Made by a program: the position numbers and the translations under genes. From Terriglobia bacterium (GTDB lineage Bacteria > Acidobacteriota > Terriglobia > Bryobacterales > Bryobacteraceae), in NCBI GenBank assembly GCA_020073145.1, contig JAIQFS010000008.1, positions 186,001 to 250,000 on the forward strand: a stretch of DNA of 64,000 bases, written 5' to 3'. Under the pieces are notes generated by a model, which was not told the origin of the DNA, did no database searches, and saw only the letters and a list, made by a program, of their open reading frames with translations. Every line of letters begins with the position of its first letter. Position 1 is the first letter of the stretch. Below are positions 43,526 to 47,841 of the stretch, piece after piece.

Positions 43526-46084
43526 CTACTCCGCGCGCAGAGTTTCCGCCAGATCGAGCCGCGCGATGCGGCGCGTTGCCGACCAGATGCCGGCCGCCGC
43601 AATCGCAAACACGGGCGCTAGGGCGGCCGCGCACGTCATCGCGCTCACCGGTTCCGCGCCCGGCAGAAGGCTCGCCAGAAACCGGCTGGCGGCGAAGGCG
43701 CCCGCCACGCCCGGTAGAGCGCCCACCGCCACCGGGAGCAGGCCTTGTTTCATCAGTCCGCCGCGCACCCGTGCCGCGGTGGTTCCCAAAGCCAGGCGGA
43801 TCCCCATCTCGCGCGTTCGCTGCGCCACTGTATACGACGCAATGCCGTAAATCCCCGTGGCCGCCAGCAGCAACGCGAATCCTCCAAAAAACAGAACCGC
43901 GGTGGTGTAGAATTTGGGCCGCGCCAGCGATTCATCGAGCCGCTCCTCCATGGTCTTCACGTCGAACACCGGCACTCTTGCATCCACCGATTGCACCGCC
44001 GCGCGAATCGGCGGGATGCGGTCTTGCGGACGCCCGCGGACCTTTGCCACCACGGTGAGGAACTGAGGCCCCATCGAGAGCAGAAAAATTTGTTCGCTGG
44101 CGGTAGTCGATAGACCGTAGCGCATTCCCCGCACGACCCCGATGATTTGGAACGGCCTTTTCCAGGGAGGTCCGCTGGTGAGCTGCCGGCCGACCATGCC
44201 GGCCGGGTCGCCGAAGCGGCGCGCAAACTGATCGTTCACAATCGCCACCGGTTCGGGGCCCTGCCCGTCGCCGTCCTGAAATTCCCGGCCATACAGGACC
44301 CGGCCGCCCATGGTCTGAAAATACCCGGGCGCCACCGGGACCACGGTTGCCAGAGCCGGTGTGCCCGCGTCATCGATTCGAAACTGCCCGCCCATAAAGG
44401 TCTGGGCGGCTAACGGCAGAAACTCCGCGGCGCTGGCGGACTCGACTCCGGCAACCTCCCGAACCCGCCGTAGCGCTTCCTGGTAATAGGTTGCGGCGCG
44501 ATCCTGATCCCGGTGCGTGCTGCCCGCCAGCGACACGCTCAGGGTTACCACGTTGCGCGTTTGATAGCCGGTATCGGCCTTCAGGAGCGCAAGAAATCCG
44601 CGGCCGAGTGCCACCGACCCGGCCAGCAGGATAATGGCGAGCGCCACCTGCGCGGCGATGAGGGCCCGCCGCACCCTTCCGGCGGGCTGCGAAGAGCCGG
44701 CTTGGCGCAGCGCCGTTATGGAAACCCTCAGCCGGCTGACGTGAACTGCCGGCAAAACCCCAAACACCAGGCCGGTGACGAACGAAAGCGCGACTGCAAA
44801 ACTGAGCACCCGCCAGTCCAGAATCCGGTACGCCTGCGCGGCCAACGCCGCCGGCTGCACCGCGGTCGCAACTGCGGCCGTCCAGTAGGCCACGATCAAA
44901 CCCGATACCGCGGCGACTCCGGACAAGAGCAGGCTCTCCGTGAGAATTTGTTGCGAGAGCCGGGCGGGGCCTGCGCCCAATGCCGCGCGAATCAGCAGTT
45001 CGCTCGACCGGTCGATGGTGCGGGCCAACAGGAAGTGCGCCACGTTCACGCACGCGATCAGCAGGATCAGCGCCACCCCGCCCATCAAAACCAACGTGGC
45101 CTGCTTCACCGGGCCGGCCAGTTGGTCCTCAATCGGCACCAGCGCGGGCCGGTTGGCGGCCGCGAAGTTGCGCGCCTCGGGAAATCTCCGATACGCTTCG
45201 GCCTCGAAGGCCGCCCGCGCCGCCGCCCACGTCAGGCCCGGTCTCAGACGTCCGATCGATTCGACAAAATACACGTTGGTTTTCGGAATGCGCGATAGGT
45301 CAAACGTCGTGGGAGTCCAGATCGCCGTCTTGGCCGGATAGTCAAAAGCGGGCGGGGCGACTCCGATGATGGTGAGCCGAACGCCGTTGGCCCGGAGGGT
45401 CGAGCCCAGGACGCGCCGATCCCCTCCGTAGAGCTGCTGCCACAAACCGTACCCGATCACCGCCACGGCGTCTTTCCCCGGCGTGTCTTCTCCCGCCGCA
45501 AAGGCCCGGCCCAGCACGGGCTCGCTGCCCAGCATGGAAAAGAAATTCCACGAAGTCTCCGTGAGCCGGATCCGCGCCGACTCCCGCGCGCCGTCCAGGT
45601 TCACGTCGAGGCTGCCGAACTGCGCCGCATCCTCCATGTAGGCGCTGTGCTTGCGCCAGTCGTGCAGCCGGTTCGGGCCGACGCCAAAACCGCCCGGAGT
45701 GAACATCTTTATGGAAGCGATTCGGTCGGGTTCCCGAAACGGGAGCGATCGCAGCAGCAGCGCGTTCAACACGCTGAAGACTCCCGTATTGGCCCCGATC
45801 CCGACCGCCAGCGCGGCGATGGCGAGGCCGGTGTGGAAGGGCCGCCGCGCCCACAGCCGGAAGGTCTGGCGGGCATCCCGCCCCAGTTCCTGCGCAAACT
45901 GCGCCGGCACCGATACCGCCAGATCGGCCGCGGTCTGCGCCCACAGCCGGGCCCGATCCGCCGGCGCCGCGGCCTCCCGGTAGTCGTCGCCAAACTGACG
46001 CTCCAGCGCGCTGCCGTATTCCTCGCGGAACCGCGGCGGATAAAGTTTCACCAGAAGGCGGTAGAAGCGGGCCGAGAAGGACAC
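43526..46084 (-). CDS. ADOP-type MacB/FtsX-like permease
   Basis: 852 residues from GTG 46084 with GAGGAACTCGAC upstream. An N-terminal cytoplasmic segment (FYRLLVKLYPPRFREEYG) is characteristic of acidobacterial duplicated orphan permeases; then MacB periplasmic domain and FtsX helices appear twice (about 95-470 and 480-850). No ATPase is encoded, hence 'orphan'. The PadR gene lies 10 bases upstream, the pairing normally seen for this family. Function in export or sensing is unknown. Confidence 0.9.
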   Translation of the reverse strand: MSFSARFYRLLVKLYPPRFREEYGSALERQFGDDYREAAAPADRARLWAQTAADLAVSVPAQFAQELGRDARQTFRLWARRPFHTGLAIAALAVGIGANTGVFSVLNALLLRSLPFREPDRIASIKMFTPGGFGVGPNRLHDWRKHSAYMEDAAQFGSLDVNLDGARESARIRLTETSWNFFSMLGSEPVLGRAFAAGEDTPGKDAVAVIGYGLWQQLYGGDRRVLGSTLRANGVRLTIIGVAPPAFDYPAKTAIWTPTTFDLSRIPKTNVYFVESIGRLRPGLTWAAARAAFEAEAYRRFPEARNFAAANRPALVPIEDQLAGPVKQATLVLMGGVALILLIACVNVAHFLLARTIDRSSELLIRAALGAGPARLSQQILTESLLLSGVAAVSGLIVAYWTAAVATAVQPAALAAQAYRILDWRVLSFAVALSFVTGLVFGVLPAVHVSRLRVSITALRQAGSSQPAGRVRRALIAAQVALAIILLAGSVALGRGFLALLKADTGYQTRNVVTLSVSLAGSTHRDQDRAATYYQEALRRVREVAGVESASAAEFLPLAAQTFMGGQFRIDDAGTPALATVVPVAPGYFQTMGGRVLYGREFQDGDGQGPEPVAIVNDQFARRFGDPAGMVGRQLTSGPPWKRPFQIIGVVRGMRYGLSTTASEQIFLLSMGPQFLTVVAKVRGRPQDRIPPIRAAVQSVDARVPVFDVKTMEERLDESLARPKFYTTAVLFFGGFALLLAATGIYGIASYTVAQRTREMGIRLALGTTAARVRGGLMKQGLLPVAVGALPGVAGAFAASRFLASLLPGAEPVSAMTCAAALAPVFAIAAAGIWSATRRIARLDLAETLRAE

Positions 46085-46094
46085 GTCGAGTTCC

Positions 46095-46460
46095 TCAGGC
46101 GCGCTGCGGCTGCCCAAATTGCGCTGCCGCCAGCTGCACCAGTTCGCGCATCCGCGCCGCTTCCGCCTGCGCCACCTTGCGTCCGAACGCCGTTAGCCGG
46201 TAATACCGGCGTCGTTCGTCGTCCAGGTGCGCGTCCGGCCGGTCTGCGGATTCCTCAATCATGCCCTGCTCGATCATCTTATTGATCGAGCCGTACAAGA
46301 CACCCGCCCCCAAGGTCAGCTTGCCGTTGGTGCGCCGCGCGATCTCCCGCTTCAACGCGTACCCGTGCCGTTCGCCTTCCCCCAGGCACAGCAGAATATG
46401 GAAGACCGCCGCGTGCAACGGCAGCAGACTCAGGGGATCCGGTTCGTTTATTTTCGCCAT
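46095..46460 (-). CDS. PadR-family regulator of the ADOP gene
   Basis: 121 residues. The winged helix has LLPLHAAVFHILLCLGEGE, HGYALKREIARRT and LGAGVLYGSINKMIEQGMIEE, ending RRYYRLTAFG; then a dimer helix. Shorter than the regulator at 4530. Its start codon lies inside a long perfect palindrome (46452-46492), so repression of its own operon, including the permease, is likely. Confidence 0.93.
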   Translation of the reverse strand: MAKINEPDPLSLLPLHAAVFHILLCLGEGERHGYALKREIARRTNGKLTLGAGVLYGSINKMIEQGMIEESADRPDAHLDDERRRYYRLTAFGRKVAQAEAARMRELVQLAAAQFGQPQRA

Positions 46461-46492
46461 ACTAGTACAAAAGTAGACCTAGTATGGCGAAA
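46452..46492. promoter_or_regulatory. 14-base perfect inverted repeat over the padR start codon
   Basis: TTTCGCCATACTAG at 46452-46465 and CTAGTATGGCGAAA at 46479-46492, with a 13-base spacer. The left arm includes the padR ATG (46458-46460). The same arms create a mirror-image ATGGCGAAA on the plus strand. Arms of this length far exceed chance and fit a two-fold symmetric PadR binding site. Confidence 0.7.
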
Positions 46493-46523
46493 CAGAGTCT
46501 ATTTGTCAAGAGACGTTCTAGCG

Positions 46524-47080
46524 GTGTCCCGGGGTGTAAAACCCGGTCTGCGCATCTTGCTGCCCCCGCTCACCATGATCGTGGCCGGTGTCGGTGGAAT
46601 CTTGCTCGCGGCCTGGTCCTCTCGACCCGTCCCACCCCTTCCCCAACAAGCCCTGAGCCCGAGTGACGAAATCGAGTACATCATATGATACGGATCAATC
46701 CGACCGCCTCAACGGGCGCTTTGTCATGAACATGGACCGGGATCGAGTGCGGCTCCAGCGCGTCAAACCCTGTATCGCAGCGGAAAGATCACCGACCCTC
46801 TGGATGAATACCGTGCCGGCCTGGTCTATCAGCACGCTGCCTGTGCGGACGACTATCAGATTGCTTATGAACTGGCGACCAGACATTCCTTCTCGTGCTC
46901 CCTGCCTTGCGGCAGAGGCAACACTGCGTTGTGCCAACAAAGCGTCCGGCCAGATTCACAGACGGGCTCGAAGCACCAGATCGAAGCCGGCTTGAAGTGC
47001 CCCCGGCGGAGGCTATCTTCTCTCGAATCGCGCCCGTTTTCATCCCTCGTTGTGGCGAAAGCGTAGCGCCGCCGTGGGGG
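46524..47080 (+). pseudogene. Decayed gene for a membrane-anchored DUF6624-like protein
   Basis: Reading shifts among frames reconstruct one protein. Frame 1 (GTG 46524 to TGA 46688): a membrane anchor LPPLTMIVAGVGGILLAAW and SPSDEIEYI. Next frame: YDTDQSDRLNGRFVMNMDRD and RVRLQRV to about 46760. Back to the first frame: RQTLYRSGKITDPLDEYRAG, LVYQHAACADDYQIAYELA to about 46885. After that, fragments such as CLAAEATLRCANKASGQ and FTDGLEAPDRSRLEVPPAE occur in other frames. The order matches DUF6624 proteins (AD-Q--R, then D-Y-AA-V-QHG, then A--LA). At least three frameshifts. Confidence 0.55.
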
Positions 47081-47181
47081 AGTCACCGCCTTTCCGCCTC
47101 AAAATTTCATTGATCCGCAAACACTTACCGCTTTGAGCCGCCGTTTCCCCCGTGCCGCCCGGGTATCCTCAAATCGACGGT

Positions 47182-47841
47182 ATGGCGACTCAGAATCAAA
47201 TCGAAGCGAATCGCCGCAATTCGCAAAAATCCACGGGCCCCACCTCGCCGGAGGGCAAGGCCGCTTCTCGTTTCAATGCCCTGAAGACCGGCATCCACGC
47301 GCAATCCCAGGTCATCCCCGGGGAAGACTCCGCCGAACTCGACGCCCTCATCACGGACTACTACTGCCGGTTCCCCCCGGCCGACGCCTTCGAGCGTTCC
47401 CTGGTCGACTCCCTCGTCTGCGCCGAATGGCAGCTCCGCCGCCTCCGCCGCGTCGAGGTCCAGCTCTGGCAGAGTCGCACCGACGACGCTCAGGCATCCA
47501 ACATCCATCCCCTCAATCCAGCCGCCCCGCTCGGCGACGTCTTCAGTCGCGGCGCCAATGCGTTCATGCTCCTGCAGCGCCGCATCGATTCCACCGAGCG
47601 CTCTCTCGCTCGCATCTTCGGACTACTCGAGCGTCTCCACGCCGCCAGATCCCAGCCCGCGCAGGAGAAGTCGCAGCCCCCGGCCCCCTGCCCCTGTCCC
47701 CCGGCCCCCGAATTGGCTTCGTTCCGTAATGTCCCCCAGCCACCCGAGATGCCTCCCGGGGCAGCCGCGCCGACGGCCGCGATCGACGGGATCCTGGATG
47801 CCGGCAACGAGAAAATCCAGAGTAACCGGGATTCCGGCTAG
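47182..47841 (+). CDS. Acidobacterial hypothetical protein with NRRNSQKSTGP motif
   Basis: 219 residues from ATG 47182; an in-frame ATG 30 bases earlier is possible. The N-terminus (ANRRNSQKSTGPTSPEGKA, then FNALKTGIHAQ) is a widely repeated family signature in Solibacter-type genomes. A helical middle (DAFERSLVDSLVCAEWQLRRL) and a Pro/Ala-rich tail follow. The function is unknown. The N-terminal motif recalls short nucleic-acid-binding segments, but that is speculation. Confidence 0.75.
   Translation: MATQNQIEANRRNSQKSTGPTSPEGKAASRFNALKTGIHAQSQVIPGEDSAELDALITDYYCRFPPADAFERSLVDSLVCAEWQLRRLRRVEVQLWQSRTDDAQASNIHPLNPAAPLGDVFSRGANAFMLLQRRIDSTERSLARIFGLLERLHAARSQPAQEKSQPPAPCPCPPAPELASFRNVPQPPEMPPGAAAPTAAIDGILDAGNEKIQSNRDSG

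Follow-up and report, generated by a model that had tools for sequence, protein, structure and literature searches.

A perfect inverted repeat at the start codon of an ADOP-linked padR gene as the probable outer part of a PadR autoregulatory operator

Background

What is the role of a perfect inverted repeat that takes in the start codon of a regulatory gene? The question is raised by a padR gene in the window, i.e. the whole 64 kb stretch of DNA analysed here. padR (46095-46460, minus strand) encodes a PadR family regulator of 121 aa (PF03551, 50.8 bits against a cut-off of 27), and its stop codon is overlapped by the gene of an ADOP-family duplicated permease (43526-46117, minus strand; TIGR03434, 692.9 bits against a cut-off of 622.3, with MacB_PCD and FtsX matches). 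The pairing of a PadR-type regulator gene with an adjacent ADOP gene is usual in acidobacteria, and the locus resembles the TIGR03433 and TIGR03434 families in having a PadR-type regulator gene beside an ADOP gene. The padR product itself scored 54.4 bits against TIGR03433 (padR_acidobact), below the cut-off of 101.8, so, as judged from this score, the window PadR belongs to a divergent subgroup relative to TIGR03433. No description of the control of acidobacterial padR-ADOP pairs was found in a literature search that was judged by its listings and had most subscription journals outside its coverage.

Results and discussion

The inverted repeat and the padR promoter

The preliminary description of this DNA reported two exact 14-base inverse complements with a 13-base spacer and placed the padR ATG in the left arm, and both statements were verified in coordinates and sequence. 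Positions 46452-46465 (TTTCGCCATACTAG) and 46479-46492 (CTAGTATGGCGAAA) are exact reverse complements of 14 + 14 nt separated by 13 nt, and the start codon, at 46458-46460 on the minus strand, lies inside the left arm. Read along the minus strand, the promoter-side arm (46479-46492) comprises the end of the -35/-10 spacer, the -10 hexamer CATACT and the start of the left half-site, and the start-codon arm (46452-46465) comprises the end of the right half-site, the ATG and padR codons 2-3 (GCG AAA). This is the one perfect 14-nt inverted repeat with a spacer of 0-30 nt in the 64 kb window, against 0.04 expected (100 dinucleotide shuffles, maximum 2), and CATACTAG-N6-20-CTAGTATG has no second copy anywhere in the 6.3 Mb genome. 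To meet one such repeat within 64 kb would be no extreme rarity, and homologues do not share its outer six letters, both of which would suit a chance repeat without function; this is nevertheless extremely improbable, since the core of the site is kept at a fixed position in homologues and palindromes are enriched at the padR starts of the genome (see below).

TTGACA (46504-46509) and CATACT (46481-46486), separated by 17 nt on the minus strand, make up a promoter match of 10/12 bases, the stronger of the two that the region 46300-47200 contains; shuffles gave 0.3 matches. The usual distance between a -10 box and the start of transcription places the putative padR start at about 46472-46475 (minus strand), on or beside the dyad centre, and would leave a leader of about 12-15 nt. 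Because the -10 box lies in the upstream arm and the start near the dyad centre, the predicted padR mRNA carries one arm only.

The preliminary description also held that the site doubles as an operator and as a possible RNA hairpin, and named the folding energy of the leader as a means of telling the two apart. For the hairpin, the leader would fold into 14 bp around the ATG and hide it from ribosomes until PadR or another factor released it. The 91-nt stretch with both arms does fold strongly (-28.1 kcal/mol, z -4.84), whereas RNA from the predicted start at 46473, which has a single arm, folds like its shuffles (z 0.46); a strongly folding two-arm RNA would need a transcription start further upstream than predicted. 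We consider such a hairpin very unlikely. The further claim that bound PadR blocks access to the start codon has to be corrected, as PadR bound to DNA would stop transcription and would not itself hide the start codon of an mRNA.

Conservation of the site in padR homologues

Homologues of padR were taken from 399 genomes of the class, 237 of the family and 257 of the order (overlapping sets) and from the genome_contigs set. Loci with a tblastn score of at least 100 and enough upstream sequence, after removal of identical contexts, made up a set of 77 including the window. The search of the order, together with searches of the family of G287 and of the order of G092, gave one extra above-threshold match, G536 (from the first of these), which stands outside the counts.

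A 23-bp core with the ATG exactly +12 from its centre was the best core match in 34 of the 77 distinct padR loci, the lower limit being 10 of 18 defined bases, a score that alone is close to background. In the window the core (ACTAGGTCTACTTTTGTACTAGT, 46461-46483, minus strand, dyad centre 46472) has the form ACTAGGTCT-acttt-TGTACTAGT with a half-site spacing of TACT-N17-AGTA. Seen against the homologues, the 14-nt repeat makes up the outer portion of a conserved site whose 23-bp dyad (ACTAtgTC...TGTACTAGT) ends just before the ATG. The comparison of arms among homologues that had been proposed at the outset thus bore out the 23-bp core in many loci and not the exact outer letters: TTTCGC/GCGAAA, lying in the promoter spacer and in codons 2-3, are not kept.

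An ADOP homologue accompanies 33 of the 34 core-bearing loci, window included, the exception being L076 (many loci end within the gene). A -35 box (at least 5/6 of TTGACA, spacer 16-18) is found upstream in 20 of the 34 and a match at the usual spacing is absent in 14. The 20 loci with the box align without gaps and give the majority consensus nnnnGnCATACTATGTCnnnnTTTGTACTAGTATGnCnAnn, in which T12, C17, A30, T32 and C37, as well as the ATG, never vary. A Shine-Dalgarno-like 4-mer is present at 1 of the 34 homologue sites, compared with 13 among 54 long ATG-first ORFs in the window; since spurious ORFs are included in this control, the comparison is set aside. A dyad is found at the promoter of the gene itself and is kept in homologues, as expected of a PadR autoregulatory operator, though not in every close homologue.

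On this sequence evidence the repeat is very probably a PadR autoregulatory operator overlapping the -10 box and the start codon, its length being best read as about 23-41 bp. The conserved core, its fixed distance to the ATG and the ADOP linkage speak for that half of the original double claim. The sequences show the repeat, the promoter match, the kept core, the ADOP linkage and the covariation of the outer arms (see below); that PadR binds and represses, where transcription starts, that the two genes form an operon and that a ligand acts on PadR is inferred, as follows. One PadR dimer, possibly two, would bind ACTAGGTCT-acttt-TGTACTAGT. As the dyad runs from inside the -10 hexamer to the base before the ATG, bound PadR would exclude RNA polymerase, and the promoter of a padR-ADOP operon would be blocked by its own PadR until a ligand relieved the block and the permease was raised. 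The shortness of the leader would draw the start codon into the symmetry, with the operator occupying the DNA between -10 box and start codon and perhaps reaching codon 3. The site offers a testable operator and, possibly, a specificity code linking recognition helix and half-site.

The 43 loci outside the core set include many distant paralogues with other dyads. Two close ones, L111 (cut by the contig start) and L120 (mis-centred in scoring), carry the core site and were left out of all counts. The overlap with the start codon is not obligatory, because the ATG lies one base further out, unpaired, in the close homologues L107, L147 and L058; in L057 it is replaced by GTG. L114, L116 and L063 (66-68 % identity) have no such site, though an LYGSINKM-like helix is present. 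In L114 and L116 the padR start lies about 20-30 bases from the end of another reading frame, without the operator, and their padR has perhaps been taken into another operon. A perfect palindrome with 20-nt arms surrounds the padR start of L075, yet a -35 match at the usual spacing is lacking there. The four other genomes of the genus gave no padR match at E 1e-36; distant padR homologues (44-48 % identity) were found in two of them.

Proteins with TACTA sites mostly have an LYGSINKM-like recognition-helix region (compared by eye), with the exception of L076 (LYGCLKRM). Members of a related PadR clade with an LYRSIQRM-like helix (L129, L131, L052, L135, L144, L078, L142 and L145) have AATATAGCC-n5-GGATATAAT-like dyads several bases upstream of the start and not at it. 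The type of operator thus tends to follow the recognition-helix region, as far as the aligned sequences indicate.

Candidate PadR sites across the host genome

The genome contains 36 PadR matches, 35 of them above the cut-off, and 22 of the 36 are followed by a presumed ADOP gene, counted as a frame of more than 600 codons that begins about 60 bases or less from where padR ends. Four starts were dropped for having no ATG, leaving 32 that could be scored, the window's included. A perfect palindrome with arms of at least 7 between -65 and +25 was found at 11 of these 32 starts against 2.35 expected, and at 4 of these 11 the palindrome extends as far as the start codon. A dyad at its own start is common for PadR in this genome, and its letters differ between paralogues.

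The core with 0-1 mismatch occurs at two places in the genome only, before the window padR and before a padR paralogue on contig C53 that is followed by an 861-codon frame. A wider regulon was considered and rejected: with up to 3 mismatches the core was found at 12 places and a backwards control pattern at 52, and because the control is the commoner at this level only the two near-exact places were counted. The fact that near-exact copies stand only before two padR genes argues, at the level of sequence, for a private autoregulatory operator.

Covariation of the outer six bases

To examine the six outermost bases of either arm, the symmetry at offsets 15-20 was compared with that obtained when the right arms were dealt among loci. 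For all 34 loci the symmetry was 0.456 against 0.364 expected (P about 0.0011-0.0014; these permutation tests ignore relatedness among loci). Where a -35 box is present (20 loci), complementarity was 52.5 % against 37.5 % expected (P 0.0001, for a division by -35 box chosen after the data had been seen). Without the window this set gave 0.500 against 0.372 (P 0.0011), and after thinning to 12 sites of less than 55 % identity P was 0.0028. There was no excess symmetry in the 14 loci without a -35 box (0.357 against 0.346, P 0.44) or beyond offset 20 (0.284 against 0.298 at offsets 21-26). The outer six bases are perfect in the window, L075 and L125; the last two have no -35 match, which runs against the division.

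In the 20-site alignment two-sided changes were counted in 26 cells; the figure for shuffles was 14.1, none of 500 coming to 26, and with slid partners it did not go above 17. Of five measures one, the count of pairs showing any two-sided change (5 of 6), did not rise above the shuffles, 401 of which, out of 500, attained it. Offset 16, with G at -16 in 18 of 20 loci and C at +16 in all 20, is not counted as support because it is almost invariant; a G there is compatible with an extended -10, and nCn is a frequent second codon.

The covariation allows the site to be read tentatively as a symmetric repressor operator some 41 bp long, beginning in the -35/-10 spacer and ending with codon 3, in which codons 2-3 co-evolve with the spacer position by position, their letters free and their symmetry kept. 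This may well hold, but falls somewhat short of being probable. If true, the coding sequence would be shaped by the symmetry of an operator, and a pair of PadR dimers, or else a symmetry-reading mode, would operate on one site; the start codon, codons 2-3 and the promoter appear here to be jointly constrained. The extended symmetry may be due to a second PadR dimer or to template-switch "correction".

The latter source would require no function of the outer bases: template switching at a selected core would copy flank onto flank and leave the outer six bases per arm as a mutational by-product. Contiguous outer runs of at least 4 are indeed found in 4 of the 34 loci against 0.63 expected and runs of at least 6 in 3 of the 34 against 0.14, among them L075, whose arms match over the full 20 nt, and the outer letters are not conserved. 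Removal of the loci with runs of at least 4 leaves no clear excess in the whole set (n=30, P 0.10), for which reason template switching may be the origin of the outer arms. The loci with a -35 box, however, keep their excess symmetry after the same removal (n=18, 0.481 against 0.373, P 0.0046), and copying of flanks would account for the outer arms alone and not for the core. We regard it as a serious though rather doubtful explanation of the outer arms.

Arms that covary while their letters change are also seen in RNA stems, and transcription might begin further upstream in L075 and L125, whose outer arms are perfect but which lack a -35 match at the usual spacing, in line with the hairpin discussed above. 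The covariation nevertheless comes from the 20 loci that have a -35 box, the 14 without one not showing it when taken together, and G-T (G-U) pairs are not in excess (8.3 % in the -35 set against 10.1 % expected). The hairpin was rejected as the main reading on account of the one-arm predicted transcript and the lack of a G-T excess.

Comparison with known PadR operators

cdPadR1 of Clostridioides difficile binds TACT(N11-12)AGTA inverted repeats in its own promoter (PMC5050560). The locus in the window shares with it a regulator of the PadR-s2 type and TACT/AGTA repeats at its own promoter. It differs in having 17 nt between the repeats instead of 11-12 and a right repeat that runs into the start codon, whereas one repeat pair of cdPadR1 is placed 25 bp upstream of the ORF.

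LmrR of Lactococcus lactis places two dimers on one operator (PMC5428041). LmrR is likewise a small PadR-type repressor of a transporter, and its two-dimer operator is a possible model for the 41-bp dyad; unlike the window site, it is given an ATGT/ACAT consensus, and its target lmrCD is a multidrug transporter, not an ADOP permease (PMC5428041 and PMC3506622).

The usual PadR box is described as ATGT/ACAT with 8-10 nt between (PMC3506622, PMC4517056). The canonical ATGT-N8-ACAT is not matched by the window site ACTAGGTCT-n5-TGTACTAGT; the homologue L123 carries ATGT-N9-ACAT. The present site would work in the manner of the known PadR operators, but its half-sites are more widely spaced and it extends into the coding sequence. 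No report of a PadR operator that overlaps a start codon was found in the literature covered, to which most subscription journals do not belong.

Frames on the opposite strand

The preliminary description drew attention to the ATGGCGAAA that the mirror arm creates on the other strand, next to a decayed gene. The motif is present at 46484, and its CAT complement begins the padR -10 hexamer. A gene starting from it was rejected, the 60-codon plus-strand frame (46484-46666) having no Pfam match; none was found either in the plus-strand frames 46227-46688, 46482-46685 and 46692-47063. The frames downstream of the mirror ATG (46484-47118) do resemble a decayed gene.

Apart from itself, the plus-strand frame 46692-47063 has as its sole match in its own genome a repeat with which two contigs begin. 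Positions 46947-47086 are found again, 99 % identical, in the first bases of two other contigs (C86:1-140 and C37:1-139), and this stretch appears to be a repeat at which the assembly breaks.
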